Assembly (NCBI GenBank): GCA_027019175.1
Contig: JALUXB010000037.1
Span: 1-59,662 of the forward strand
Direction of reading: 5' to 3'
Length of the DNA stretch: 59,662 bases
Origin: Sulfurovum sp.
GTDB taxonomy: Bacteria > Campylobacterota > Campylobacteria > Campylobacterales > Sulfurovaceae
Made by a program: the position numbers and the translations under genes. Below the pieces are notes generated by a model that worked only from the letters and a program-made list of their open reading frames with translations, did no database searches and was not told the DNA's origin. Below are positions 1 through 56,230 of this stretch, piece after piece (the first letter of the stretch is position 1; each line of letters starts with the position of its first letter).

Positions 1-248
1 ATATTGCAGTTTACAGTGTGTACCATACACCATGTGGAAGGTTTGACTTTGATGCATCTATCTATGCCGACACGGGCGTAAAGAGGCAGTTCTGCAATCT
101 TCTCGGAACGATAATCCGGTTTTTTCCTGACGCTAAGCGTATCGTCTTCTGCTATCTTGACAACCGTACCGAAAAGTCCCGGGTAGAAAGTATCCGCTGC
201 GGCAAGAAGTACCAGAAAGGACATTGTCGCAAGCCAAATCTTTTTCAT
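1..248 (-). CDS. Secreted SH3-like domain protein (partial, 3' end outside window)
   Basis: The gene starts at an ATG at 248 and stays open to the left edge, so about 82 N-terminal residues are visible. It opens MKKIWLATMSFLVLLAAADT, a signal peptide. The next part reads GTVVKIAEDDTLSVRKKPDY and then SEKIAELPLYARVGI, the usual start of a bacterial SH3 (SH3b) repeat, where LxVRxxPxxxSxxI is the hallmark. Such domains bind peptidoglycan or proteins in the periplasm; the ligand here is unknown. It begins 7 nt after the stop of the upstream gene, so it is the sixth and last visible gene of the left-hand operon. A second Cys-containing stretch near the edge (CIKVKPSTWCMVHTVNC) suggests a disulfide. 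Confidence 0.75.
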   Translation of the reverse strand, partial: MKKIWLATMSFLVLLAAADTFYPGLFGTVVKIAEDDTLSVRKKPDYRSEKIAELPLYARVGIDRCIKVKPSTWCMVHTVNCN

Positions 249-255
249 TGCGCCG

Positions 256-630
256 TTACCACTTTATCAGAAAAGCGACAGATTCCGTACCGCTGTCGTA
301 GACTCTCTCTTCGCACAGCGCTTCTATATCTTTAGATATCTCTTTTTTATAGGTGTAGTCCGCATATCCCATACCGGGTATTTTTGTCGTATCGGTCTTT
401 TTCAAACCAAGGCTTTTACAGTCGAAGTCCACGTTGGTAATGGTCTTTTCGATATCGCTGCCAAATTCGAACTTGATCGACTTGGTCGCTTTTTCGATAT
501 CTTTTTTCGAAGCATTTTTGACGATCTTCACTCTGTAGTTCTCAAGATCGATCTTCTCTGTCGCATAGACTGTCGATGTACCCAGTACCGCTATAACCAA
601 TGCCGTTGTCACGCTTTTTTTCTCAAACAT
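256..630 (-). CDS. Small secreted protein of unknown function
   Basis: A 124-residue protein with an N-terminal signal sequence (MFEKKSVTTALVIAVLGTST, probable cleavage after VYA). The mature part is short, charged and mixed alpha/beta, with two cysteines (FDCKSLG and EALCEER) that could pair in the periplasm. A strong AAGGAG ribosome site precedes the ATG. I do not recognise a family. It lies 45 nt after the preceding gene's stop and 7 nt before the SH3-like gene, so it belongs to the same operon as the giant VWA protein. Confidence 0.7.
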   Translation of the reverse strand: MFEKKSVTTALVIAVLGTSTVYATEKIDLENYRVKIVKNASKKDIEKATKSIKFEFGSDIEKTITNVDFDCKSLGLKKTDTTKIPGMGYADYTYKKEISKDIEALCEERVYDSGTESVAFLIKW

Positions 631-675
631 TTTTTCTCCTTTTGGTTTGATGAATTTTTTTAAGAAACCTATGGC

Positions 676-1863
676 TTAGAACCTTCCTTTTCTATAGGCT
701 TCCATCCTTTTTTTCTCCTCTTTGGTGGAGGGGCGTATCTCTATTTTGAACGCTATCTTCTGGTCTTGCGTACCGTCCACAGGCGGGATCATCGCGCTTT
801 CCAAAGCTACCTTGCTGCCGCATCGATTCTCTTTTGAGGGTTCAATGGCATCTATCTGCGCTTTCCATACCGCTATCAACTCGGAATTTTTCGCTTCATT
901 TCGATACTTGGCCGCCATATCGTTCACCTGGTCAAATATCGTTTTTGCAAGTTGGGGTATCTTCTTTTTGTATGTCAGCTGCTTGCTGTAGCGACCGTTT
1001 TTTCTCAATCTTCCCCAGGTAAACTGTAACGGCTTGTGGTCTGGCGAGAGATCAACATAGAATATTGTGTTCTTGTCAAATCCCCAACCGGCATCTTCTG
1101 ACTTTAAAATAGGGGAGCCACCCATATTTTTCACTACTTCCTCTTTGCTCTCCACCTCATATTGGCAGCTTTGCATATTTAGCCTGTAACGCTCTTGGTG
1201 TATTGTGCGTGTCGATTTGGCATCGACATGAAGCTGATCTATTTTTCCCTTGTCGGTATCGACATAGATATAGTAAAGATCTTTGTCTTTTTCGAAACTT
1301 ACAAGTTCCCTGTTCGTTCCCCTATAGTTTTCGATGGGTTTTAGTTTTGTGGTCGTTTTTTTGCTTGTAATGACGGTATAGTAGGCCTCTGGACACATCT
1401 GATCTGCCAATGATTTTGAGGCCTTATCTACCAGTTTGAAAAAACTACCTTCCGGACCAGAAGCCTTTGCCTGCGCTGTCAAAGAACCTTGACGGTCTTC
1501 TATCCTGAGATCAATTGATACGCTCCCATTTTTGAAAGTTGCCTTTCCTTTTACCAAATGTGTAGCTTCTGTAAAGTGAGGTTTTAAGCGGTTAGAAGGA
1601 TCAACATAGTCGCCAGACGAAAATTCAATCTCCTTCTCTATTGCTTCCTTCATCCGAGGGTCTTCTGTCGCAACTACTTTATATGAACAACGAAAAATAT
1701 CCAAATCAGTAACGACCATATTTGCCAGTCTATCCCCTGGTGTAGCATTACCGACAATAGTAAAGTCAGCAGGGTTGTAACCAATCGCTGTCTGTTGACC
1801 GGATACAGCCTTCAGAAGATTTACGCTGCATACAAGTAACAGTCCTAATAGCATCTTCTTCAT
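676..1863 (-). CDS. Periplasmic protein with CsgG/LpoB-like N-terminal half, unknown function
   Basis: About 395 residues. I place the start at the ATG at 1863 (MKKMLLGLLLVCSVNLLKAV, a signal peptide), one base after the preceding stop; an upstream TTG would add four residues. Residues 30-165 follow the pattern of the CsgG/LpoB/FlgO-type fold: a conserved helix (GDRLANMVVTDLD), a long helix with an acidic cluster (KEAIEKEIEFSSGDY), a strand resembling gAxylv.G (THLVKGKATFKNG), a strand pair (VSIDLRIEDRQGSL) and a last amphipathic helix. That likeness is my reading of the pattern, not a search. The C-terminal half is charged, with four or five Cys, and I do not recognise it. Its placement between two secreted proteins of the same operon supports an envelope role. 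Confidence 0.7.
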   Translation of the reverse strand: MKKMLLGLLLVCSVNLLKAVSGQQTAIGYNPADFTIVGNATPGDRLANMVVTDLDIFRCSYKVVATEDPRMKEAIEKEIEFSSGDYVDPSNRLKPHFTEATHLVKGKATFKNGSVSIDLRIEDRQGSLTAQAKASGPEGSFFKLVDKASKSLADQMCPEAYYTVITSKKTTTKLKPIENYRGTNRELVSFEKDKDLYYIYVDTDKGKIDQLHVDAKSTRTIHQERYRLNMQSCQYEVESKEEVVKNMGGSPILKSEDAGWGFDKNTIFYVDLSPDHKPLQFTWGRLRKNGRYSKQLTYKKKIPQLAKTIFDQVNDMAAKYRNEAKNSELIAVWKAQIDAIEPSKENRCGSKVALESAMIPPVDGTQDQKIAFKIEIRPSTKEEKKRMEAYRKGRF

Positions 1864-1864
1864 C

Positions 1865-3088
1865 TTACTGTCCAAAGAGACCCTTCATCATCTCGGCGGC
1901 TTTTTTCAAGTCTTCCTGGCTTGGTCCTCCTGAAGGAGGGGTACTACCGCCTTTGCCTCCAAACATCTTTTCAACATCTTTAAGTGCATCCTGGGGGTTT
2001 GCCATAGTACGTTTTACCGGTTTGAAGTCTGCCAGATGCAAAAGATCATCAGCAGTTTTTAGAAGATCGTCCGTAACGTTTTCGGTTGCGGTAACCTCCA
2101 GCAGGGCATTTGGCAGTTTTATGTCAAGTGCTTTGATTCCTGCCATATCCAAACGGGCCATCTGGTAGCGGTCTCCCTGCAGTTTTCCCCGCTTTAACCC
2201 TGTGATGCTAAGTCCCCTGAGCTTATAGGTTGCGATCAGTCCCTGGTTGTGCGGATCGTTTACCGAAAGGCTAAGATGAATGTAGCCATCCCCTTTTTGA
2301 TAGAGAGCGTTCTCAAGGTGCATGCCCATCATATCCGAACAGGTTCCGCTGTCGATCATCTTCCATCCGTCGGCACTGCTTTTAGCAATGGAGTGCAGCA
2401 TTGTCGCTTCGCCGTGTTTGCCTATAATGGCACATACAGGCGGCTTTTTAATGTGTATGAGAGGTTTTTTAGTCTGTCCTATATGTGTAGGTGCCGAGGA
2501 GTTTCCACTTGCTGCAAACAGTGTGTCGGGCAGATCGCTTTTGTCAAGGTTCGTAACCCTGAAGCCGTCCCCTGCAACGATAACATATCCCTCTTTTACC
2601 TCATACATATTGCCTGTTTCACCTTCTGGCGACAATTTGCTCATAAACTTGGAGAAGCCGTTCATGGCATTGACGAGATCTTTGTCGTTTGTTACCAGTA
2701 CTTTGTCTTTTTCTATACCTGCCTGGTCTTTGACGCTAATGGTCCACTCTTGGGCTTTAACGCCGGCGACAGTTTTGGTGCCGCCTTTGTGAATGACCTC
2801 GATTTCTGGCTTTTGCATAGCATCGCTTTGTCCGCCCATTTGAGAGAACTGCGAAAGCATCGCACTCATATCAAGGTAACGTTTTTTGCCGTTTACGGTG
2901 GTGACCGAATAGATCTTCTCTCCATTGACAAGCTGAGCAACCTTGCGGCCCCCTTCGTTGCCTTCCAAAAGCATATGGGCATCGTCTTTGTAGAAGAACT
3001 TCTGTTGGGTACCGCCCATTTGCATCGTAAGCGTATAGTCTGCCATCGCCAAAGCGCTAAAAGCGCTTATCAGTATGATTCTTTTCAT
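1865..3088 (-). CDS. Periplasmic DUF4412-like protein
   Basis: About 407 residues from the ATG at 3088 (MKRIILISAFSALAMADYTL), preceded by a strong AAGGAG. The ATG shares its A with the upstream TAA (TAATG), so translation is coupled. Residues 17-170 look like a DUF4412-type beta-rich domain: a repeated strand pattern around YTLTMQMGGTQQKFFYKD, then KIYSVTTVNGKKRYLDM, then AGVKAQEWTISVKD. Such domains often occur in lipid- or matrix-binding envelope proteins, and the function here is not known. Residues 210-330 form a second unknown domain with Cys at PPVCAIIGKHG and SGTCSDMMG. The C-terminus is a Gly/Pro-rich linker (GGKGGSTPPSGGPSQ) and a short helix. DUF4412 is a moderately sure call by pattern. 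Confidence 0.65.
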   Translation of the reverse strand: MKRIILISAFSALAMADYTLTMQMGGTQQKFFYKDDAHMLLEGNEGGRKVAQLVNGEKIYSVTTVNGKKRYLDMSAMLSQFSQMGGQSDAMQKPEIEVIHKGGTKTVAGVKAQEWTISVKDQAGIEKDKVLVTNDKDLVNAMNGFSKFMSKLSPEGETGNMYEVKEGYVIVAGDGFRVTNLDKSDLPDTLFAASGNSSAPTHIGQTKKPLIHIKKPPVCAIIGKHGEATMLHSIAKSSADGWKMIDSGTCSDMMGMHLENALYQKGDGYIHLSLSVNDPHNQGLIATYKLRGLSITGLKRGKLQGDRYQMARLDMAGIKALDIKLPNALLEVTATENVTDDLLKTADDLLHLADFKPVKRTMANPQDALKDVEKMFGGKGGSTPPSGGPSQEDLKKAAEMMKGLFGQ

Positions 3089-3594
3089 TATTTTGCTCCT
3101 TTTAGAGTGTTTGCAACGCGGACCATCTCTTTCCACCAGACAAGTTTGTAGTGTCCGTCGTCATTGAAAACAAGTATCATCGACTTCGTTTTGGGGGCAG
3201 CCAGAATGTAGATATGTTGCGCACCGTTTTTGAGGTCTTTGCTAAAGGGCGCTTTGGGGTCGTTGTCTTTAAACGATTTCAAAAACCCTTTTTTAACCGT
3301 TCCGTAAAGCGGACTCTTGTGCAGCGGTTCAAAACGCTTACTGTGTTGAATGAGACTTTCCAGCGCTTCAAGGGAAAAACCGTTGTCGTCGGATGCCAGA
3401 GCGTTCCTTGATTTGATGCCTCCGACGATCCACTCGTAGTTGAAGTCACCGTTGAGCCCGTATATGTTCTCTTTTATGGCACCATACTGTTTGGTGACAA
3501 CTTTAGCCTTTATCTCTTTGAACAACCCTCCAATAGAATTGTCGTTTCCGAACAGAAACCCTGTTAAAAGCAGTGCAAGTAAAACTTTTTTCAT
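3088..3594 (-). CDS. Secreted protein of unknown function
   Basis: A 168-residue protein from the ATG at 3594 (MKKVLLALLLTGFLFGNDNS), with an AAGGAG site six bases upstream. A longer reading that starts inside the giant gene has no ribosome site and no signal peptide, so I reject it. The mature part has a central segment NIYGLNGDFNYEWIVGG and ends in strand-like IYILAAPKTKSMILVFNDDG plus a Trp pair (LVWWKEM). It lies 70 nt downstream of the giant VWA gene and overlaps the next gene by one base. I recognise no family; an exported accessory protein of this operon is the simplest reading. Confidence 0.65.
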   Translation of the reverse strand: MKKVLLALLLTGFLFGNDNSIGGLFKEIKAKVVTKQYGAIKENIYGLNGDFNYEWIVGGIKSRNALASDDNGFSLEALESLIQHSKRFEPLHKSPLYGTVKKGFLKSFKDNDPKAPFSKDLKNGAQHIYILAAPKTKSMILVFNDDGHYKLVWWKEMVRVANTLKGAK

Positions 3595-3664
3595 ATCTTT
3601 CTCCTTCTGTTTTGTTTTGAGCATTTGAACGCTTCTTTGCCGCTGTTGAAGTTTCGGTACGGTG

Positions 3665-6600
3665 TTAATTGCATCCGCTCGCCCCCTCTTTTGCAGCCCC
3701 AAAATATGCCGATACCGCATCACCGAAGCCATTGGCGTAGCCGCCGACGGTTGAGGCTATATCACCAAGATTCTTATGCGCCAGCATCTTCTGAAATGCT
3801 TCACCGAACCTGATGCCGTTGGCGGCATTGCCGTGGTCCGTACAGCCCAGGATCGCACCTGCACCTCCGGTCGCATTGTCTGTAAGAACGTTCGAGCCCA
3901 CTTCCTCTGAAGCGCTTTTGGCCATGGATGAACCGACCTGCAGTACCGACACGCCACATGCGATCTGGCTGGCTATCTGCTCAGCGTTTTTCAAAATGGA
4001 ACAGTAGTCCTCCTCATTCAGTGCCATTTTCGCAACACTGAAAATGGACGTGCTACTTCCTATGAAAAAACCTACTGCATACTGATTGACCGCCTGGATA
4101 AAGTCCATAATGGATTTTTCCGTCATCGCACCGTGCTGTCCGTTTTCGAAAACAGAGATCAGGTGGTAGTTGTCAGGATCCATCTCAAGCCATCCCATCT
4201 GCGCTATCGGTTTTTCCGGTATGAGCCAATAGTTGTCACTCTCCTGATAGCGCTGTATTACCTTTTTGGAAAAGTGCTGTTGCGTCAGCCATTGCGTGAT
4301 GCTCTCTTTTGCCGGATCGGAAATGCTTCTGTATGCGGGTAGGAGCGTTATATCGCGCACCTTGCTATCCTGCCAGTACTCCAATATGCCTTTCCCTCCT
4401 GGGATAGAGGCAGCTTCGGCCTTGCTGTTGAAGAAGCCGCTCATAATATTGAAAGAACGTGTTGCATTCTCATCTCCATAGACGTCATTGAATACCATAC
4501 GAAGGTTCAGAGAACTTATCAGCTTCTTATCAGGTCTCTTCTCGATCATCGCTATCATGGCTCTTGGTGTCTTGTTGCGTTTTGCATCGACTCCAAGGAT
4601 TTTCTGCAGTTGCGCTTCATATCTGCTCTGCAGTGCGGTGAACCTGTATAGCTTTGTTCTGTTTACCCACTGCAGTTTAGAGAACGGTGCAACCTTTTTG
4701 ATGCCGCTAAAGCGTGCTTTTCTTTGTGTCTCTATTGCCTTTAACGCCGTTTCTGACAGGTCGGGCGATGCAAATGCAAAGGTGAAGAAGAGTTCGTCGA
4801 TACGTTGTCCCTTTTTGAATGTAAAAGTGTATTCCTCCAGATACTCTTCACCGTTATAGAGTTTAATGACAAGCGTTTTTGGAATGATCTTCCCCTCGAC
4901 TTCTGTATCATCGTTCTCTATGCCGTCATGGGCTAAATAGTGCGTCTGAATGATGTGTTTGCCGTCTTTGTTCTTCCCCTCGGTAAACCAGACATCTATT
5001 GGCATATCCGAGGCATACTCCAGGGAAAATGAGCGATTGAGTATCTTTTTACGCTTCTCTTTTTGCGTATTTCCGCCACTCAGTGCACCAGCCATGCCAC
5101 CCATTTGATGGCTGACACTTTCACGGGCGTCCTGATAGGTCAGTTCTATTTTTATCTCTGCATCATCGGAGCCGATCCCGTTCATACCTGAACGGCTGTC
5201 TGGTTCAAGCTCTTTACTCAAAGCCTCAACAGGTTTAAGAAACGGCAATACCAGACTTTGGGTGTGATTCTTCTCTCCCCACTCGATAAAGGGAACATTG
5301 TTGAGCTTTACAGGTATGGCGCCGGCTTTTGCCTTTAACGCCTCTTTCCCTGCATCGCTTAAACTGTAATAGCCCAGTGTGATCGGCACGTTGTATGTAC
5401 GGATCAATCGGTAGAGTGCCTGCAGCATCTCATATTCGCCACCCCATCCCTGCGTCAGCATGGAGGCTGTAGAGTAGCGTACTCCGTTATCCAGGGAAGG
5501 GACCCACTGCAGTGCCTGAAGTGTTTTGATCATCGTATCGATGCTGTCGATCTTTGCAAGTTTCTCTTTACCGTAGAGTGAGATCGGCAGAGGATCGACA
5601 GTCTGCGCCTGCGGGTCTGGGGAGTCCAGCGTAACAACAGGCAGTTTGCTGCCGGTTTTCTTCTTCACTGCCGTCTTTTTCGATCGCATCTTTTTCAAAA
5701 GAACTGCCACTTCCTTATCGTAGTCTCCTTCTGTATCAAACGCCAGTTTCTCTGTCATCAGATACGTTAGTGACGACGGCAGTTTTGGCAACTTTTTCAT
5801 ATCGATCTTGTAGCTTAGCTCCTTGAAGATAGGTGAGATGAGATAGTTAGCCTCTGCTTTTTCGATTTTCTCTTTGTCAAACAGTACTACAAAACGGCGT
5901 GAGGTACCATCATAGATGACTTCTGAATTATCATATCCGACTATCTTCTGTCCGGTTTCACTGTCAGGTGCCCACCACTTGTAGGCACCTTCAATCCCCG
6001 ACTGATTGCTGAACGATCCAAGACCCTTGTGCCCGGCTTTGTATTCGACACTTTTATCGACAATGGTGGCAAAACTCTTTATCTGGTCATATTTGCTCAT
6101 GACAACGGCATCATGTACTCTGGTGGACTCGCCATCCTTGATGTCATGGAGTGTGATATCAAGTGCCAGATATCCGCGTGGGGTCAGATAGAGACCATTG
6201 AGATCCATTGAGACCCCTTCAGCCTTGGCGGAGGTCAGCGTTTTGCTCTCGGATGTGATATTTGCCTCTTTGATCGGGATCTCGACATCATCACCCTTGA
6301 GCTCCACAAGAAGCGATCGGGGGTTCTCTTTAAGCGCTTTGGGGATATGGAATGCCAGTTTGAAACGGTTAAAAGAGCCCGGTGCCAGGGCGATGTCTTT
6401 GTAGAGTCCCATTGGCAGCGCAGTGGTGATAGGGTGTGTTGGAAAGATGTAGTCCCCCTTGGCACTCTTTATCTTAAGAAAGATACGTTTGCCGGCATCG
6501 ATCTTCAGCAGTGCATTTACATTGCTTTTGAGTGTAACGTCCAAAATATCAAACACCGCTTCCTTTTCAGCCTTGGTTGTCCTGATCTTCTCCTGCAGCG

Positions 6601-9600
6601 ATTCGGACGTTACTTTAAGAGCAAAATTCTCCCCCATTTTTTTGAATGAGGACTTTGGAAGTTCGTCTGTTTTCTCTTTTGTCACTTTCATCGTACCGAT
6701 AAGCGGGATATCAAGGTGTCCGTAGGCGGTATCGTAAAGATGCAGCGAGAGGCTCTTGATGGGCTCATCGGGAATCGTGAACGCCAGCACACCCTCTTTT
6801 TTCACTTTGGGTTCAACCACAAGTTGGTGTTCATCCAGCTCCACCAGCGGTTTTTCCAGTGCCCATGTGATCGACTCGAAGGGTATCTCGTATTCATTAT
6901 TGACACGTACGAAAAGGTGCCTTCTAAGATCGGGAATTATGTAGCTTGGAACCGCTTCGATACTTTTGTCGTTCTCGCTGCTTCTATCGATCCAGGCGCT
7001 TGGGTGTTTGGAACCGTCTTCGAGTACCAGTACCTTTTGTGACGGAAGTAGGTTTTTCAAGGAGAGGTCCAGAACCAGGAAACGCTTACTGTGTCCTGCT
7101 CTGATGTCTTTGAGTCTGTCGAAGAGATAGGCGCTTTTGGCCTCAATCTTTACAGCGCGGTTGCGTCCGCCAACAGTGCGGTTATGTTCGTCTCTAAGCG
7201 GTAAGATCTTGCTTAGCCACACCTCTTTGATCGGTGTGTCATCACCGTAGATCTTTTTGGCGTTTTGAACATTGTAACTCTCCCTGTCTGCATCGAAAGG
7301 CTCGATGCGGTAACTGACATCGGTTACTTTCTTTGTGGCGTTGCTCTCTTTTAGGAGTAGGAAATCGACAGCCTTTTCGCCGACAGCAACCAGCATCTGT
7401 CCGTTTTTATCATTGCGCCGTTTGAGTTTGACGGTAACCACCCCCGCACCTATCTGTGTTGCATTGTGCTCTCCGACTCTTTGCGTAACGTCCAGTATCT
7501 TCTGGCGGATCTTTTCTATATCGGCACTGACGAAGGCTTCTCCACCGCTTATTTTTGCAAGACGTTCAACCTCCTTTTTTGCCTTTTTGCTTTCAACAAT
7601 ACCCAGCCATAAAGTTTGGATTCCGCTTCGTTTAAAAGCCAAAAGGGCCGATTTTAACTCTTTTTGCTGCTCTTTGTTGAATTTGAATGCATCTCCGGCA
7701 GCGTCGGTCAGGAAGATAAAATAGCGTCTGTTGGAGGGGATAACGCTGGAGAGTGCATATCCCTGTTTGACCGCTTCCAAAATATTGGTACCGCCACCGA
7801 TCTTCATTGCTCCGATACCGGCAAGGAGCCTTGCCCGGTCTTTTGTGGCAATTTGCAGGGTTTTGACCTCGCTGTTAAATACACTTAATTGAACGAAGCT
7901 GTTTTCGGGGAGGTTCTGTATGCTTTGCGCCAGGGTGCTTTTAATCTGCTCGTAACGGTATCCGCACCCTTCACACTCTTTTGCCATTGTAAAGCGCAGA
8001 TCCTGTGATCCGCTCACATCGACCATGTAGTTGACTACGCTTTGGCTCCCCTCTCTGGGAAGCTTTCCCCGTTTGTAGGTGAGCCTGTAGGCGGAAGAGA
8101 GCGTATGGGCGATGTCGTCGAAAATGTGGGTAAGCTGCTCCTCTTTCTCTCCCTGGTAGTAGGTTGTTTTGGTCAGTTTGGCAATCGTCGTCAGTGTGGT
8201 GGTGTCCGCTCCTTTGCCGAACGCGATCGGGTAGATGGGGATATAGGAGGACTGTACCTTTGACATCATCTGTTCAAAGGTCGCTTTGCTGCCCCGTCTG
8301 GTATCGTTGTAGTTGGCATCTTTGCCATCGGTGAACAGTACGATGGAGGCGTGGCTTTTTTCTTTTAGCAGTTCGACACCTTTAATGATGCTGTCGTAAA
8401 GCGCAGTTGCACCGTTGGCTTTGATCTTTTTCAGTTTGGCAAGCAGCATTTTACGGTTTTTTGCGGTAATGGGCTTGACCTTCGTATCGAAATCGACCAG
8501 TGTGATCTTTGCATCTTCTGGCAGTTTTTCAATAAATGCTTTGACACTCTGCAGCGCAAGCTTCATACTCTTTTTCATAGAACCTGACGAATCAAGCAGA
8601 ATGACTACGTTCATTGGCTGGTGAAGCGGCTCCAGATTTACCACTTCGCCTGCGACCGTTCCTGCTTCAAGGACGGAAAAGTCCTCTTTTGTCAGATTCA
8701 TATCTTTGGGAAGATGCGAGAGAGAAAGTGTGACGCTTGCCTGCTCGCTCTCTTGGGGGGTAACATCATAGATCGTCATTTTTGTGGTTACCCTGTCGCT
8801 GCCGCTCGATCGTTTCCGACTCATCTCCTCATAGTAAAGAGGCCACTCGATGGTCGTCTGATGGTTGGCAAGAATCGGTACCAGGTTACTTCGCAGGTTG
8901 CCCTTTGTGAGGGTGTAGTAGGCGTTGTTGAGCCAGTAGATCGCATCACCGTTTGGCAGATAGTCTCCCTTGTTGTTAAAATCTCCCAGTACATTCCCGA
9001 CACTTTCTATATGCGGCAGCGAAGAGAGGGCGTTTTGCATTCGAAGTAGTCCCGCTTTTTGGGAAAGTGCACCCAAAGAGGGGACAGGGTACGCTGTACG
9101 GAGCAGTTTCAACCTGACCTTTGTTCTGCCGTTGTAGGGTGCTATGTCAAAATAGTGTAGTGCCCGGTAGGGGTCCAGATCGTACATAGTGTAGCGCTTG
9201 TAGTATTTTGCATCGCAAGTAAGACTGCTGCTGTAACGGATGCGTATCGCCTCATCTTCCAGGTCGGGCTTGGCTTTGATCTTTATCCCCTCTCCTTCGA
9301 GGATCTCAACACTAAGATAGTAGTAGTGCTTCCCGTCAAAGTTGCTAAGATAGGAGAGCTTTTTGGGAATGCCTTCTCCTTCGTCAAGCACGATCTCCTG
9401 AGGTTGGTTGGGTTGAAGAAGGTGTTCTTGATAGATATAGATGCGCACCTCAGAGTTCCAGGCGTAACTGAAATCATAGTAACGCCTTACGCTCTCATTA
9501 CTCTCCATATAGAGCGTCCGATCCTTGTCGCGGTAGAGAGGTTTGAGCCCTTTTTTGGCAAGTGCATCCTCAATATCGATACGAGCCTGCTTATGGCTCT

Positions 9601-9838
9601 CTTTCGTTTCTGTCGGGTAGCGAAACTGCCAGTACTGGCCTCTGACATTGATGGTGTGTTTTGTTTTGTTCAGATCGTATGAAAGCGAAGTGTCATCGAT
9701 ATCAAAATAGTCTTTGTAGTCGTTGTAGCTTTCAAGCGGAAAGGGACTCCAGGGTGGAGGAACGATCTTGCTGGAGGCGTTTGTATATGTTAGAAACAGT
9801 AAGAAAGACAGTATTGTAGTAAATAAAACTTTTTTCAA
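3665..9838 (-). CDS. Giant secreted tandem-VWA protein (2057 aa)
   Basis: The protein opens with a signal peptide (MKKVLFTTILSFLLFLTYTN) translated from a TTG start at 9838; the purine run AGGAGAGG upstream fits that start. Residues 1-400 are beta-rich and unassigned. VWA domain 1 (about 408-590) has the MIDAS motif DSSGS, the Thr in NGATALYDS and the Asp in FTDGKD. VWA domain 2 (about 600-790) has DVSGS, GGGTNILEA and FLTDAAGD, so both metal sites look intact. From 790 to 1400 are long beta-rich repeats of unknown type. Around 1460-1500 (QGWGGEYEMLQALYRLIRTY then NVPITLGYYSL) the pattern recalls a transglutaminase-like core but lacks the catalytic Cys. A hydrophobic, Gly/Ala-rich tail (1930-2057) could insert in or contact a membrane. 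It is the first gene of a six-gene operon of secreted proteins. Binding of a surface or periplasmic partner is inferred from VWA biology; the true ligand is unknown. Confidence 0.8.
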   Translation of the reverse strand: MKKVLFTTILSFLLFLTYTNASSKIVPPPWSPFPLESYNDYKDYFDIDDTSLSYDLNKTKHTINVRGQYWQFRYPTETKESHKQARIDIEDALAKKGLKPLYRDKDRTLYMESNESVRRYYDFSYAWNSEVRIYIYQEHLLQPNQPQEIVLDEGEGIPKKLSYLSNFDGKHYYYLSVEILEGEGIKIKAKPDLEDEAIRIRYSSSLTCDAKYYKRYTMYDLDPYRALHYFDIAPYNGRTKVRLKLLRTAYPVPSLGALSQKAGLLRMQNALSSLPHIESVGNVLGDFNNKGDYLPNGDAIYWLNNAYYTLTKGNLRSNLVPILANHQTTIEWPLYYEEMSRKRSSGSDRVTTKMTIYDVTPQESEQASVTLSLSHLPKDMNLTKEDFSVLEAGTVAGEVVNLEPLHQPMNVVILLDSSGSMKKSMKLALQSVKAFIEKLPEDAKITLVDFDTKVKPITAKNRKMLLAKLKKIKANGATALYDSIIKGVELLKEKSHASIVLFTDGKDANYNDTRRGSKATFEQMMSKVQSSYIPIYPIAFGKGADTTTLTTIAKLTKTTYYQGEKEEQLTHIFDDIAHTLSSAYRLTYKRGKLPREGSQSVVNYMVDVSGSQDLRFTMAKECEGCGYRYEQIKSTLAQSIQNLPENSFVQLSVFNSEVKTLQIATKDRARLLAGIGAMKIGGGTNILEAVKQGYALSSVIPSNRRYFIFLTDAAGDAFKFNKEQQKELKSALLAFKRSGIQTLWLGIVESKKAKKEVERLAKISGGEAFVSADIEKIRQKILDVTQRVGEHNATQIGAGVVTVKLKRRNDKNGQMLVAVGEKAVDFLLLKESNATKKVTDVSYRIEPFDADRESYNVQNAKKIYGDDTPIKEVWLSKILPLRDEHNRTVGGRNRAVKIEAKSAYLFDRLKDIRAGHSKRFLVLDLSLKNLLPSQKVLVLEDGSKHPSAWIDRSSENDKSIEAVPSYIIPDLRRHLFVRVNNEYEIPFESITWALEKPLVELDEHQLVVEPKVKKEGVLAFTIPDEPIKSLSLHLYDTAYGHLDIPLIGTMKVTKEKTDELPKSSFKKMGENFALKVTSESLQEKIRTTKAEKEAVFDILDVTLKSNVNALLKIDAGKRIFLKIKSAKGDYIFPTHPITTALPMGLYKDIALAPGSFNRFKLAFHIPKALKENPRSLLVELKGDDVEIPIKEANITSESKTLTSAKAEGVSMDLNGLYLTPRGYLALDITLHDIKDGESTRVHDAVVMSKYDQIKSFATIVDKSVEYKAGHKGLGSFSNQSGIEGAYKWWAPDSETGQKIVGYDNSEVIYDGTSRRFVVLFDKEKIEKAEANYLISPIFKELSYKIDMKKLPKLPSSLTYLMTEKLAFDTEGDYDKEVAVLLKKMRSKKTAVKKKTGSKLPVVTLDSPDPQAQTVDPLPISLYGKEKLAKIDSIDTMIKTLQALQWVPSLDNGVRYSTASMLTQGWGGEYEMLQALYRLIRTYNVPITLGYYSLSDAGKEALKAKAGAIPVKLNNVPFIEWGEKNHTQSLVLPFLKPVEALSKELEPDSRSGMNGIGSDDAEIKIELTYQDARESVSHQMGGMAGALSGGNTQKEKRKKILNRSFSLEYASDMPIDVWFTEGKNKDGKHIIQTHYLAHDGIENDDTEVEGKIIPKTLVIKLYNGEEYLEEYTFTFKKGQRIDELFFTFAFASPDLSETALKAIETQRKARFSGIKKVAPFSKLQWVNRTKLYRFTALQSRYEAQLQKILGVDAKRNKTPRAMIAMIEKRPDKKLISSLNLRMVFNDVYGDENATRSFNIMSGFFNSKAEAASIPGGKGILEYWQDSKVRDITLLPAYRSISDPAKESITQWLTQQHFSKKVIQRYQESDNYWLIPEKPIAQMGWLEMDPDNYHLISVFENGQHGAMTEKSIMDFIQAVNQYAVGFFIGSSTSIFSVAKMALNEEDYCSILKNAEQIASQIACGVSVLQVGSSMAKSASEEVGSNVLTDNATGGAGAILGCTDHGNAANGIRFGEAFQKMLAHKNLGDIASTVGGYANGFGDAVSAYFGAAKEGASGCN

Positions 9839-12416: not shown

Positions 12417-13040
12417 ATGGCTGAGAAGATTTTATGCTGCCACGAGTGTGATGAATTGGTGCGCGTACCCCAAACACGGAAAGAAGGGCGTTTGAAGTGT
12501 CCGCGCTGCGGTACTACGCTGCTGCGTCAGAAGAAGGGAATGGTAGAGATTATGTACGCACTTTCCATTGCGGCATCTATCCTTTTTTTGTTGACCAACT
12601 ACTTTCCATTCCTCTCCTTTCATGTCGTTGGCAACACATCACATGCAAATTTTATGACCAGTATTGTCTATCTTTTTGGAGAAGGTGACTGGCTGATAGG
12701 CCTTGCCGTATTGATGACAACCGTGGTTGTACCGATGATCCGCATTGGACTGATGCTGAGTCTCTTTGGACCGATCTATCACGGTATCATACCACCTTAT
12801 ACTGTATTTGCACTCAAGGTACTTTCCCATTCGCTTCCCTGGGCGATGCTCGATGTCTTTTTGGTTGGTGTGTTTGTTTCCATGGTGAAACTGGTAAAAA
12901 TGGGAACGATTATTCCGGGACTCTCACTCTGGGCCTTTATGGTGATGGTCTTTGTCATGGCGGCGATGCAGGTGGTCTTCGACCCGCAGCCGCTGTGGGA
13001 GAAGGTCGATGAACGTCGTAGTGAGAAGGGTCTGGTATGA
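12417..13040 (+). CDS. pqiA: PqiA-type membrane protein, first half
   Basis: 207 residues. The N-terminus has two CxxC pairs (CCHECDEL and CPRCGTTL), a zinc-ribbon motif typical of the PqiA domain, and then four membrane helices. E. coli PqiA carries two such domains in one chain; here each is its own gene. PqiA anchors the MCE protein PqiB to the inner membrane for lipid transport between membranes. The stop overlaps the next start by four bases (ATGA), so the two halves are translationally coupled and probably act together. Symbol by family, since the split gene is not strictly PqiA. Confidence 0.85.
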   Translation: MAEKILCCHECDELVRVPQTRKEGRLKCPRCGTTLLRQKKGMVEIMYALSIAASILFLLTNYFPFLSFHVVGNTSHANFMTSIVYLFGEGDWLIGLAVLMTTVVVPMIRIGLMLSLFGPIYHGIIPPYTVFALKVLSHSLPWAMLDVFLVGVFVSMVKLVKMGTIIPGLSLWAFMVMVFVMAAMQVVFDPQPLWEKVDERRSEKGLV

Positions 13041-13681
13041 GGGCGATCGATCTTGGCATGGCAAGCTGCCATACCTGTCATGAGGTGGTCAGACTGCCAA
13101 AGGTTAAGGGCGAAGGTTCTATTCTCTGTCCCCGATGCGGAGAAGAGGTGCATCTGCGCAAACCCAACAGCATCCAGTACACCTGGGCACTGGTAATCGC
13201 CAGTATTATTCTGTATATTCCCGCAAATGTACTGCCCATGATGGAGGTCGAAACCTTTGCCGGTACACAGGCTGATACGATCATCAGCGGAGTGCTCTAC
13301 TTTCTGGAAACAGGCTCTTATCTGATTGCATCGGTGATCTTTATTGCCAGTATTATTGTACCGATAACAAAGCTGATCATTTTGATCTATTTGCTTATTA
13401 CGGTGCAAAAAAAGAGTCCGTTGCGTCAAAAACAGCGCAAAAAGCTTTATGTACTCACAGAAATCATCGGAAAGTGGTCGATGGTCGATGTTTATGTGGT
13501 TGCCATTATGATCGCACTGGTACACTTTGGGGGTATGACAGAGATCAAAGCCGGAGACGGGGCAACCTACTTCCTGCTTGTGGTGATTGTCACTATGATC
13601 GCTGCAATGCAGTTTGATCCGAAGCTGATATGGGATACGGAAATTCAAGAAAAGAGGAAAACAGATGCAGGAAACGCATGA
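13037..13681 (+). CDS. pqiA: PqiA-type membrane protein, second half
   Basis: 214 residues, equivalent to the second PqiA domain. It shows a CHTC pair and a CPRC pair (SCHTCHEV and LCPRCGEE), then helices including ALVIASIILYIPANVLPMME and LVVIVTMIAAMQFDPK. The conserved proline/asparagine region ANVLPMM is typical of this family. It overlaps its twin by four bases and the MCE gene by 17 bases. The pair replaces one longer PqiA; no frameshift is needed, because each copy has its own start and stop. Confidence 0.85.
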   Translation: MRAIDLGMASCHTCHEVVRLPKVKGEGSILCPRCGEEVHLRKPNSIQYTWALVIASIILYIPANVLPMMEVETFAGTQADTIISGVLYFLETGSYLIASVIFIASIIVPITKLIILIYLLITVQKKSPLRQKQRKKLYVLTEIIGKWSMVDVYVVAIMIALVHFGGMTEIKAGDGATYFLLVVIVTMIAAMQFDPKLIWDTEIQEKRKTDAGNA

Positions 13682-15248
13682 AACAGACAAGATAGAAGAG
13701 GCAGTTTGGGAAGAGAAAAAAAAGGGAATCTCTGCTGTCTGGATCGTTCCGATCGTTGCACTGGTGATTGGATTGTGGCTTTTTTATCAGTCATGGAGTG
13801 AAAAAGGGCCGGAAGTGGTTATCAATTTTAAGTCTGCTGCGGGTATACAGGCAGGGAAGACACCTGTCAAATACAAAGATGTTGTTGTAGGAAAAGTAAC
13901 CGATGTCACGTTTGGAGAAGCCTTGAAAACGGTTAAGGTTACTGCGGAACTGAAAAAGAACATGAAACCTTTTTTGAGTGAAAATACCCGATTTTGGGTA
14001 GTTCAGGCACGGCTTGGTGTAGGTGAGGTGCAGGGACTCGATACATTGCTCTCCGGTGTCTATATTGTAATCGATCCGCATGAAGGCAAGGAGAAAGTAC
14101 GTGAGTACAAAGGGCTGGATCATATTCCGGTTGTCACTTCAGGAGAGAAGGGGCGTACGTTTAAACTCAAAGCCGATACTGTCGGATCGCTCAGTATCGG
14201 ATCTCCCATCTACTACAAGCGTTTGAGGGCGGGGAGTGTCGCGTCCTATAAACTCGATCCGGACGGAAAGTATGTGACCATCGAAGTTTTTGTCAAATCA
14301 CCGTTCGATAAACTTATCAATGACAAGACACGTTTTTACAATGCCAGCGGGATCGATGTCAATATGGGAGCAAATGGCTTTGAGATCCAGACTGAATCGT
14401 TAATCTCGGTGATGATGGGGGGACTTGCATTTGATAATTTTATTGCGTTCGGCAAGGGGGAACCTGTAGGGAAAGAGCATGTTTTCAGGCTGTACAGCAA
14501 TAAGACGGAAGCCAAAAAGAAAGAGTACAATCGTGCTATTTACTTCTGGGTTTATTTTAACGAGTCGATCAGAGGACTGTCTGTTGGTGCACCTGTTGAG
14601 TTCCATGGGCTTGAGATTGGAGAAGTCGTCAACTATTCTCTTGTAGGCAATGCCGATACGGCAGAGTTCAAGATTCCAATTTTGATCAAGATTGAACCTG
14701 AACGCTTTACGATACTGGGCAAAAAGAGTGATGAAGACCAGATTGATCTTCCTGTCTTTAAAAAACTGCTTGCCAAAGGATTCAGTGCACAACTTCAAAC
14801 AGGGAACCTTATTACCGGAGAACTCTTTATAGACCTTGGTTTCCATCCTGATATGCCGAAAGCTGTGCTGAAAAAAGAGTACAATTATTATGTGATTCCA
14901 AGTGTACCGGCAACAATGGCTTCGCTCAAATCAGATCTGCAGACAATTCTCAAGCGTATTGCAGCCATTCCGTTCGAAGAGATCGGCAAAGAACTGAATG
15001 CGTCATTGAAAGATGCACACGAAGAGACACTGCCAAAACTGAATCAGTCACTTGACGCACTTTCAAAGCTGATTAAAGATACCAGTGTCCTGATGAATGA
15101 AGCACGGAAGAACTACATCGATACCAATGCACAGATGAACAAAAAAATCCAGCGCCTGCTTGATGAGGCGACGCGGGCAACACGTTCTGTCAAAAACCTG
15201 ACTGACTATCTTGAACGTCATCCGGAATCATTACTGAAAGGAAAATAG
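13665..15248 (+). CDS. pqiB: PqiB-like three-MCE-domain lipid transport protein
   Basis: 527 residues. There is one N-terminal membrane helix (about 24-42), then three MCE domains: about 48-145 (INFKSAAGIQAGKTPVKYKD), about 160-260 (KADTVGSLSIGSPIYYKRLR) and about 290-405 (YFNESIRGLSVGAPVEFHGL). A C-terminal coiled-coil-like helix (440-515) ends the chain. In E. coli PqiB three MCE domains and a long coiled coil form a tunnel across the periplasm, and this layout matches. Genes before it encode PqiA halves and the next gene its lipoprotein partner, so it is the core of a lipid-transfer system from inner to outer membrane. Confidence 0.9.
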   Translation: MQETHETDKIEEAVWEEKKKGISAVWIVPIVALVIGLWLFYQSWSEKGPEVVINFKSAAGIQAGKTPVKYKDVVVGKVTDVTFGEALKTVKVTAELKKNMKPFLSENTRFWVVQARLGVGEVQGLDTLLSGVYIVIDPHEGKEKVREYKGLDHIPVVTSGEKGRTFKLKADTVGSLSIGSPIYYKRLRAGSVASYKLDPDGKYVTIEVFVKSPFDKLINDKTRFYNASGIDVNMGANGFEIQTESLISVMMGGLAFDNFIAFGKGEPVGKEHVFRLYSNKTEAKKKEYNRAIYFWVYFNESIRGLSVGAPVEFHGLEIGEVVNYSLVGNADTAEFKIPILIKIEPERFTILGKKSDEDQIDLPVFKKLLAKGFSAQLQTGNLITGELFIDLGFHPDMPKAVLKKEYNYYVIPSVPATMASLKSDLQTILKRIAAIPFEEIGKELNASLKDAHEETLPKLNQSLDALSKLIKDTSVLMNEARKNYIDTNAQMNKKIQRLLDEATRATRSVKNLTDYLERHPESLLKGK

Positions 15249-15833
15249 ATGAAATTACGAGGTCTACTTGCCATTGTACTGCTGGGACTGCTGCTTGGCG
15301 GCTGCAGCAGCAAATCAAACTTTTATCAGCTGCATACGGCAAGTGTCGATGATGTGCAGCGATCCAAGCATATCAAGAAAACAGTTATCGGTATTGCCGA
15401 AGTTGACTTGCCGGAGTACCTGGACAAGCCGCAAATCGTTACGCGTCTTTCTGCAAGTCAGTTGAAAGTGAATGAAACAGAACGCTGGGTAGGTGCATTT
15501 GACAAGAACATTCAAAGCGTACTTGCCAACAATCTTGCCAAATTGCTGCCGCAGTACAGTTTTATGGTACGCCCATGGGAAGAACCGTTGGAAGACCGTT
15601 ACCGCATTTACCTCAGCGTCGAGCGTTTTGATGGTGATGCCAAGAGTGGTGTGGTTTCCTTCCGTGGAAGATGGAGTCTTGTCGATATGGAGAACAACAG
15701 GCTGATTACGGGTGAAGATATCGACTACAGTGAGCGTGGCGGGGCAAGTGTCGATGCCCTTGTCGATACGCAAAGCCGACTGCTTGAGCGTCTAAGCAGG
15801 CATATTGCACAGCGGGTGAAGAGGTACCTGTAA
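15249..15833 (+). CDS. pqiC: PqiC-type outer-membrane lipoprotein
   Basis: 194 residues. Lipobox LLLGGC (Cys about 19) after a short signal MKLRGLLAIVLLG. The domain starts NFYQLHTASVDD and continues TVIGIAEVDLPEYLDKPQIV, the hallmark of the ABC-type transport auxiliary lipoprotein (DUF330, PqiC/YmbA) family. The ATG follows the pqiB stop with no gap. It would sit at the inner face of the outer membrane and receive the PqiB tube. A second protein of this family occurs at 40733 with the Mla-like genes. Confidence 0.9.
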   Translation: MKLRGLLAIVLLGLLLGGCSSKSNFYQLHTASVDDVQRSKHIKKTVIGIAEVDLPEYLDKPQIVTRLSASQLKVNETERWVGAFDKNIQSVLANNLAKLLPQYSFMVRPWEEPLEDRYRIYLSVERFDGDAKSGVVSFRGRWSLVDMENNRLITGEDIDYSERGGASVDALVDTQSRLLERLSRHIAQRVKRYL

Positions 15834-53656: not shown

Positions 53657-56230
53657 ATGGCCTTAGTAGAAGAGTATAAAGCACACACCGAAGAGCGTGC
53701 GAAGCTGGGAGTACCACCGCTTCCATTGACAGCAGAACAGACCGCAGAACTTGTCGAGCTTCTCAAAGCAGACCCTATCGTTGAAGAAGAGTATCTTCTT
53801 GACCTGCTGAAGAACCACGTTCCTGCGGGTGTTGATGACGCTGCCTATGTCAAAGCAGCATTCCTCAATGCCATTGTGACAGGTGATGCACACTGTAAAG
53901 CACTGACGCCGGTTGATGCCATTAAAATTCTCGGTATGATGCTTGGCGGATTCAATGTCGGTCCGCTTGTGGAAGCACTGAAGTCACCGCATGTTGAAGT
54001 AGCCCAGGCGGCTGCAGACGAGTTGAAGAATACGATTCTTGTGTATGATGCGTTCAATGAAGTCAAAGATCTGATGGATGAAGGCAATATGTTTGCCAAA
54101 GAAGTGATTGAGTCATGGGCAAATGCTGAGTGGTTCACCAACAAGCCGCCTTTGGCTGAAGAGATCACCCTGACAGTGTATAAAGTACCGGGCGAGACCA
54201 ATACAGATGACCTCTCTCCTGCCTCTGAAGCTTTTACCAGAGCCGATATTCCGTTGCATGCACAGTCATTCCTTGTTGCAAGAATGGAAAAACCGCTTGA
54301 GACAATGGAAGAGCTGAGAAAAAAAGGGCATCCTCTCGCTTATGTGGGTGATGTTGTCGGTACCGGTTCATCAAGAAAATCAGGGATCAACTCTGTACAA
54401 TGGCATATGGGTCACGATATTCCGGGTATTCCCAACAAGCGTACAGGCGGTGTGGTCATCGGTTCCATTATCGCACCTATTTTCTTCAATACTGCGGAAG
54501 ATTCAGGGTGTCTGCCAATTCAGGCTCCTGTTGACAACCTTGAAACGGGCGATGTGATTACTGTAAAGCCGTTTGAGGGGGTTATTGAAAAAGACGGTAA
54601 AGTGGTTTCAGAATTCAAGCTCGAGCCAAATACGCTTCCTGACGAAATGAGAGCGGGAGGACGTATCCCACTTATTATCGGAAAAGGACTGACTGCCAAA
54701 GCAAGAGAAGCACTTGGACTTGGTGCATCAGATATCTTTATGAAGCCTGACCAGCCGCAGGATGACGGAAAAGGATATACACTGGCTCAGAAAATGGTCG
54801 GTAAAGCGTGCGGTATGGAGGGTGTCAAACCAGGTACCTACTGTGAGCCGGTCTGTACGACTGTCGGGTCTCAGGATACAACAGGTCCAATGACAAGAGA
54901 TGAGATCAAAGAGCTTGCAGCACTGAGCTTTGGTGCAGACTTTGTACTTCAGTCATTCTGTCACACAGCAGCATATCCGAAGCCTGCGGATATCGAGCTT
55001 CAGCACACACTGCCGAAATTCTGGACAGAGCGTAAAGGGTTCATCCTCAGACCGGGTGACGGTGTTATTCACAGCTGGCTCAACCGTATGTGTCTGCCGG
55101 ATACAGTCGGTACAGGTGGTGACTCCCATACACGTTTCCCAATCGGTATTTCATTCCCGGCAGGTTCGGGGCTGGTAGCGTTTGCAGCGGTTACTGGGAT
55201 GATGCCTCTTACTATGCCTGAGTCGGTACTGGTACGTTTCAAAGGTGAAATACAGCCGGGTATCACACTGCGTGACCTTGTTAATGCCATTCCTTATCAG
55301 GCGATCAAAGAGGGACTTCTGACAGTCGAGAAGAAAGGAAAGAAAAACATCTTTGCCGGTAGAATCCTTGAGATAGAAGGGCTTGAAACACTCAAGTGTG
55401 AGCAGGCATTTGAACTTTCAGATGCTTCTGCTGAGCGTTCAGCAGCAGCGTGTACCGTCAAACTCGACAAAGAACCTATCATTGAATATCTTGAGTCGAA
55501 CATTGTGCTCATTGAAGAGCTGATCGAGAAAGGGTATGAAGACAAAGCAACACTCAAAAGACGTGCAGACAAAATGAGAGAGTGGATCAAAAATCCGGAA
55601 CTGCTCGAGCGTGATGAAGATGCACAGTATGCGGCGGTTATCGAGATCGACCTCAATGAGATCACCGAGCCTATTTTGGCATGTCCAAACGATCCGGATG
55701 ATGTTGCAACACTCTCTGAAATCCTTGCCGATGAGAAGAGACCAAAAAATATTGACGAAGTTTTTGTCGGTTCATGTATGACCAATATCGGTCTTTTCCG
55801 CGCTGTGGGTGAAGTACTGAAGGGTGAAGGTGCCGTGAAGGCGAGAACCTGGATCGCACCGCCAACCAAAATGGATGAGAAAGAGCTGATCGAAGAGGGC
55901 TACTTTGCGATCTTCGGTGCGGCAGGTGCACGAACGGAAATTCCGGGATGTTCACTCTGTATGGGGAACCAGGCACGTGTTGCAGACAATGCGATTGTTT
56001 TCTCTACTTCGACAAGAAACTTTGATAACCGTCTCGGTAAAGGAGCGCAGGTTTATCTCGGTTCTGCAGAAATGGCAGCTGTTGCAGCACTGCTTGGACG
56101 CCTCCCGACTAAAGAGGAATACCTCGAGATCGTCAACAAGAAGATCACGCCTGAAAATAGAGACAGTGTCTATAAATATCTTAACTTCAACAAAGTCTCC
56201 AAAGAGGCGCTTGACGCAATGGTCGGATAA
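53657..56230 (+). CDS. acnB: Bifunctional aconitate hydratase 2 / 2-methylisocitrate dehydratase
   Basis: 857 residues, normal AcnB length. N-terminal HEAT-like domain (1-160), swivel domain (about 165-370, containing [20 protein letters not shown]), then the catalytic domains with [16 protein letters not shown] and [20 protein letters not shown], and the cluster cysteines in GSCMTNIG and [15 protein letters not shown]. Converts citrate to isocitrate in the TCA cycle. Strong ribosome site ACAGGAG. It is under its own promoter in the 179-nt gap, which has no further feature I can support. Confidence 0.97.

Follow-up and report, generated by a model that had tools for sequence, protein, structure and literature searches.

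The gene cluster at the start of the 59,662-nucleotide Sulfurovum sp. contig analysed here (the window, which is the entire contig C37 of genome G000) looks like a modular, hitherto undescribed cell-envelope system. We give an even chance to the reading that it is one version of a modular Sulfurovaceae envelope operon, in which a large exported VWA protein is combined with variable small exported proteins, nearly always including one of SH3 type, and in which the 2057-residue product of the first gene, hereafter the giant, would act as a non-catalytic ligand-binding scaffold. Sequence comparison establishes that the gene set recurs, with one large VWA protein replaced by another, and that the giant belongs to a cross-phylum exoprotein family. 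The system is read as modular because the set recurs with other adhesion proteins and because the giant is solitary in unrelated bacteria. Neither Pfam nor NCBIfam has a name for most of the accessory proteins or for over 1,000 residues of the giant; the locus links several of these unannotated families and provides a testable gene set for envelope building or monitoring in sulfur-oxidising Campylobacterota. No description of the gene set was found in the open-access literature, which is not proof of its absence.

Layout of the locus

Six minus-strand genes for exported products run from position 9838 to the contig edge, with successive gaps of 70, -1, 1, 45 and 7 nt:

3665-9838, minus strand: giant, 2057 aa, signal peptide, TTG start
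3088-3594, minus strand: g2, 168 aa, ATG start, exported, family F13; 70-nt gap after the giant
1865-3088, minus strand: g3, 407 aa, exported, family F7; its start codon shares one base with the stop of g2
676-1863, minus strand: g4, 395 aa, exported, family F9; 1-nt gap after g3
256-630, minus strand: g5, 124 aa, exported, family F2; 45-nt gap after g4
3-248, minus strand: g6, SH3-type, family F1; 7-nt gap after g5; truncated at the contig start

Since g6 is cut at window position 1 and the operon is incomplete there, six is a minimum gene count; the remainder of g6 and the operon end were searched for across the rest of the same assembly and not found. The TTG start of the giant is served by a ribosome site rated good, AGGAGAGG, 4 nt upstream. 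A promoter scan returned a count no better than that of shuffled sequences, and terminator-like sites were slightly more numerous than in shuffles (18 versus 11.6, sd 3.5).

The N-terminus of each of the six products is basic and is accompanied by a hydrophobic stretch and a credible signal-peptidase site, export signals that were called from sequence and hydropathy. The initial annotation, which described six minus-strand genes spaced from a one-base overlap to 70 nt, a signal peptide on every product and a 2057-residue tandem VWA protein leading the operon, is thus borne out by the open reading frames and their spacing, by the hydropathy judgement and by two VWA stretches in Pfam, respectively. 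Its functional labels fared less well. Pfam and NCBIfam recognise the two VWA domains of the giant and nothing above cut-off in g2-g6; the labels 'DUF4412-like' and 'CsgG/LpoB-like' have no Pfam support, neither g3 nor g4 having a Pfam match, and the DUF4412 profile does not match g3 at E up to 1. The 'SH3-like' label is supported through the full-length relative L022_5, which matches PF08239 with E 4e-8 (33.7 bits against a cut-off of 27), the cut g6 itself reaching only E 0.24. The statement that no product has a recognised enzyme domain agrees with the profile searches, but profile comparison reveals a transglutaminase-like domain devoid of the catalytic cysteine in the giant.

Close to the giant, the window also carries PqiA-type, MlaD-domain and auxiliary-lipoprotein genes (12417-15833). 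A second PqiA/MlaD/lipoprotein set lies elsewhere in the same genome (L105, 1-3441), near a 7TMR-DISM kinase and a DUF4412-type gene, which may be due to chance.

Domain architecture of the giant

The following parts of the giant were delimited by profile searches, profile comparison and AlphaFold models:

8639-9838, minus strand: residues 1-400, signal peptide and beta-rich region without a named family
8117-8611, minus strand: VWA domain 1, residues 410-574 (Pfam PF13519), complete MIDAS D416/S418/S420/T478/D504
7469-8047, minus strand: VWA domain 2, approximately residues 598-790 (second Pfam stretch), MIDAS D607/S609/S611/T684/D712
6695-7174, minus strand: beta-sandwich 1, residues 889-1048, with an AlphaFold secondary structure that is repeated in the next domain
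6263-6640, minus strand: beta-sandwich 2, residues 1067-1192, DUF4352-like by VIA
5795-6241, minus strand: beta-sandwich 3, residues 1200-1348, from the AlphaFold model
5219-5599, minus strand: transglutaminase-like domain, residues 1414-1540, from hhalign; no catalytic Cys
3944-5182, minus strand: C-terminal module, residues 1553-1965, conserved, with a 'WLEIDPxTY' motif, from hhalign

The match to PF13519 is strong (73 bits against a cut-off of 27, E 3e-20) and covers two stretches. All five MIDAS positions of the first VWA domain are identical across ten relatives, and each of those of the second is identical in nine or ten of the ten, the sole exception among the ten positions over the relatives compared being one Thr-to-Asn replacement. 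In the AlphaFold model of residues 1-888 (pLDDT 78.6), solved VWA structures are the top fold matches, with VIA Z values of about 21 and 20 for domains 1 and 2, respectively, and include the pilus proteins Mfa5 and PilB. Residues 1-400 are modelled with a pLDDT of mostly 77-95 past residue 50, and are left without a fold match because the VWA matches filled the structure search.

For the C-terminal half, modelled as residues 889-2057 with a pLDDT of 73.6, a sequence search returned no relatives of solved structure. Beta-sandwich 2 superposes over 111-117 residues (VIA Z 10.6-11.6) on a Bacillus anthracis protein and on B. subtilis YxkC, YjhA and YcdA, which we take to be DUF4352 proteins; the DUF4352 profile (PF11611) gave a weak match (E 0.024) to one relative of the giant only. 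The likeness of beta-sandwich 3 to RbmA and to the factor XIII beta domains (Z of about 7) may merely reflect a common fold.

The region spanning residues 1414-1540 has no Pfam match of its own. When isolated and aligned by hhalign to the Transglut_core region of the 759-aa proteins introduced below, it scored 25.5, against a mean of 12.0 and a maximum of 21.0 for 196 unrelated fragments, and the alignment sets 'YAPEAVLTQGWGTE' onto 'RSPAQVLKDGRGNS'. Profile comparison thus points to a transglutaminase-like domain without a nucleophile: the column of the catalytic Cys holds Glu, Ser, Gln or Asp in 14 of 14 relatives, which excludes the usual transglutaminase catalysis; the positions of His and Asp were assessed by visual inspection alone. 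A Foldseek comparison of the C-terminal model with TG2 gave a weak match (E 0.019). The conserved C-terminal module that follows resembles, over 398 columns (hhalign E 2e-12), the 759-aa transglutaminase-type proteins of loci L067 and L068, from genomes G1153 and G1197, where the matching segment lies directly behind a Pfam Transglut_core domain. In that domain of the 759-aa proteins (L067, 7077-9356; L068, 2904-5180), a Ser is aligned with the catalytic Cys.

Recurrence and distribution

Relatives of the accessory genes are found within the family in several arrangements. Genes 72-75% identical to g2 lie immediately ahead of g3 in G021 and G022; g3 is present in 19 of the 175 family genomes and is followed by relatives of g4 in G158, G123 and G021; g5 is present in seven of the 175, with 75-77% identity in G125 and G114; and g6 shares 50-54% identity with a full-length 353-aa gene. 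The recurring Sulfurovaceae set comprises families F1 (SH3-type), F2 (g5-type), F7 (g3-type), F9 (g4-type), F13 (g2-type), F4 (DUF4412-type), F8, F11 and F12, several of which were joined by BLAST clustering alone. The SH3-type family is present in 11 of 14 comparison loci, and those of g2, g3, g4 and g5 in 3, 6, 5 and 8 of 15 loci, respectively. In many genomes, SH3-type, g5-type, DUF4412-type and further members of the set reappear close to large VWA genes. The g3-type and DUF4412-type families were kept separate because g3 and the DUF4412-type genes of G125 and G170 match over only 20 profile columns. The DUF4412-type genes of L067 and L068 have no significant profile match to either family, so the name denotes likeness in build only; the DUF4412 profile itself matched none of L018_1, L022_4 and the L067 gene at a threshold of 0.1. 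A candidate relation between g4 and a 302-aa gene of G125 was rejected, as no homology was detected.

The order VWA gene, g2, g3 is common to the window, G021 and G022 (L098 and L099), the VWA protein of the latter two being 651-817 aa long and of a different subfamily from the giant. A VWA gene of this type is followed by g3 without g2 in G158, G123 and G162, while the pair formed by a VWA gene and a pseudo-transglutaminase gene comes after the SH3 gene in G170 and G121; in G125 and G114 it is the giant that comes last, so the order is not fixed. The large VWA member is therefore variable, being a smaller VWA protein in most clusters, the VWA/pseudo-transglutaminase pair in others or the giant, which is clustered with g5 and SH3 genes in all three Sulfurovaceae genomes that have it in full. 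What stays constant, on this evidence, is the combination of a large VWA protein with an SH3-type protein; the giant is not a constant member.

These results divide the earlier proposal of a surface or periplasmic assembly scaffolded by the giant, which was expected to show as recurrence with conserved order. The accessory genes do recur together in Sulfurovaceae and the order VWA-g2-g3 is kept in L098 and L099, but the full order is not, and an obligate scaffold role of the giant is not supported, the giant being neither constant here nor, for the most part, accompanied elsewhere. Membership of the giant in a large known family needing no partners had been named as contrary evidence; such a partnerless family does exist, but it is uncharacterised.

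Pfam and NCBIfam cover this family only in its VWA part. Searching species genomes with a profile of the C-terminal 1169 residues yielded 13 loci with relatives: in Sulfurovum and another epsilonproteobacterium, in Thermodesulfatator autotrophicus, Desulfobacteraceae and a Halanaerobiales MAG, and in several Clostridia. Many of these relatives are co-linear with the giant along some 2000 residues (22-28% identity). The giant's family is carried by 7 of the 175 genomes of the window's own taxonomic family, by 6 of 398 and 6 of 345 in samples of two phyla and, across the window's phylum, by 3 of 397 (the window's genome and two of the same genus); it is therefore widespread but sparse. Outside Sulfurovaceae the giant mostly stands alone among unrelated neighbours without g2-g6, and hence needs none of these partners. 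One Clostridia genome has two giants (L035, 5806-13441; L036, 3041-13426), each preceded by zinc-ribbon-type proteins and one of them by an AIM24 protein. A mobile-element or phage origin was rejected, as no relatives of the giant were found in viral contigs (IMG/VR) or plasmids, the GC content is not unusual and there are no tandem repeats.

The two halves of the giant also occur apart. G074, G170 and G121 encode the C-terminal half on its own, immediately after a VWA gene whose product (1676-1772 aa) contains PPC-like and F5/8C-like parts; in G172 the contig starts at the split C-terminal gene. In G1153 and G1197, which belong to another phylum, a cluster of four genes unites the gene for the 759-aa transglutaminase-type protein with those for a DUF4412-type product, a product of 339 aa and a VWA protein of 1130 aa, the last homologous to the 1700-aa VWA proteins of Sulfurovaceae over 530-700 residues (E of about 1e-39 to 1e-36). 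Distant genomes thus carry the VWA and pseudo-transglutaminase parts joined in one protein, as neighbouring genes or within one cluster, a pattern that is commonly taken to signal a functional link. The existence of fused, side-by-side and solitary forms in different phyla amounts to a natural experiment on how VWA receptors and a dead transglutaminase-like domain cooperate. Downstream of the pseudo-transglutaminase gene of G121 lie papain-like, caspase-domain and metallo-beta-lactamase genes (L023, 84-3758).

Rates of divergence are uneven. The window's aconitase, a housekeeping protein identified by its sequence (53657-56230), shares 91% identity with its counterpart in G125 and 85% with those in G021 and G123. 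Between the window and G125 the giant, for which this is the nearest full-length relative, is 47% identical and g5 77%; given the 47% for the giant against 91% for aconitase, its association with the accessory set may be a recent and loose one. g3 is 70% identical to its relative in G021 versus 45% in G123, at equal housekeeping distance. These identities fit whole-block exchange between lineages, and loss or differences in rate are also possible.

Proposed function and alternative readings

As a scaffold, the giant would reside in the periplasm or on the surface and have no catalytic role. Its two MIDAS metal sites would bind a protein or polymer ligand, the dead transglutaminase-like domain may provide a second binding surface for partners and the beta-sandwiches would give reach. 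Peptidoglycan is a common ligand of bacterial SH3 domains, and anchoring of the complex to the cell wall may fall to the SH3-type protein and the other small proteins. In G125, G114, G172 and G022 (L018, L072, L024 and L099) the cluster adjoins a gene for a 7TMR-DISM histidine kinase, and on contig C25 of the window's own genome such a kinase lies beside a DUF4412-type gene; the kinase and a response regulator, which are frequently encoded close by, may control the complex or sense its state. Several points count against this reading: the giant is solitary in most other phyla, gene order varies, the window contains no kinase gene, and the downstream end of the operon is absent from the contig. 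An elaboration that we consider improbable is an envelope-sensing system, in which the giant, gripping a polymer of the wall or the cell surface with its metal sites, would report the condition of the envelope to the 7TMR-DISM kinase, the interchangeable VWA protein setting what is sensed. Behind the giant of G125 are RimK-type ATP-grasp, second ATP-grasp-like and carboxypeptidase-like genes (L018, 14892-19990), and a RimK-type ATP-grasp gene also adjoins the fragment of the giant in G114.

It is possible, though rather unlikely, that the giant is instead an independent secreted adhesin, sharing transcription with an unrelated envelope operon and forming no complex with its products. Its solitary relatives in Halanaerobiales, Thermodesulfatator, Desulfobacteraceae and Clostridia are consistent with this, as is the accompaniment of the accessory set by other VWA proteins; however, the giant replaces another VWA protein, which is not a random landing, it is accompanied by g5 and SH3 genes wherever it is full-length in Sulfurovaceae, and a second phylum also has VWA, transglutaminase-type and DUF4412-type genes in one cluster. 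A surface adhesion apparatus directed at minerals, animal hosts or other cells and resembling PilY1 or the VWA proteins of type V pilus tips, for which the small proteins would be helpers of export or display, is distinctly unlikely. The tandem VWA domains with intact MIDAS, the fold matches to Mfa5 and PilB and the origin of one relative of the giant in a tubeworm-associated assembly point in its direction, but neither the window cluster nor the related clusters examined contain a recognisable pilus, sortase or dedicated secretion gene, and the family is also found in a thermophile and in Clostridia. The abundance of beta-sandwich domains and the top Foldseek match of the C-terminal model, the Salmonella alpha-2-macroglobulin (E 2e-5), might suggest a macroglobulin-like protease trap or envelope crosslinker, which is very improbable: that match has a TM-score of 0.07 and an rmsd of 30 Å, none of the seven Cys residues of the giant begins a CxEQ thioester motif and the transglutaminase Cys is absent. 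The macroglobulin and viral-glycoprotein Foldseek matches were discarded, their query TM-scores being below 0.1.

Returning to the modular envelope operon, its resemblance to known systems is partial. The giant shares with secreted VWA/MIDAS proteins (PF00092/PF13519), such as PilY1, Mfa5 and the inter-alpha-inhibitor heavy chain, export, a complete-MIDAS VWA fold and a multi-domain, beta-rich build, but differs from them in its DUF4352-like sandwiches, dead transglutaminase-like domain and unnamed C-terminal module, and in lacking nearby pilus genes. Its likeness to the transglutaminase-like superfamily (PF01841) is a profile alignment with a Transglut_core protein in the SP-x-x-VL-x-x-G-x-G helix region, whereas the catalytic Cys is replaced in all 14 relatives and is Ser in the 759-aa relatives. 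The MoxR AAA+/VWA systems (Bat, RavA-ViaA and NorQ-NorD) also have a VWA component; in contrast to the membrane-bound Bat VWA proteins, that of the window is an exported giant, and no MoxR-type AAA+ gene is present in its cluster as far as the contig reaches. In the vWA-MoxR ternary conflict systems, VWA proteins are combined with MoxR-type NTPases and effectors, for instance trypsin or caspase, in variable gene sets reminiscent of those described here (PMC7159879), whereas in the present locus all products are exported. PADLOC gave no match, and a role in anti-phage defence was rejected. The MoxR/Bat operons of the window's genome are on other contigs (C5 and C27). In G086 and G066 (L101 and L102) the SH3-type end of the accessory cluster lies close to a MoxR/Bat-type operon, and in G066 most of the accessory genes are present in two side-by-side copies (L102, 6661-17947).
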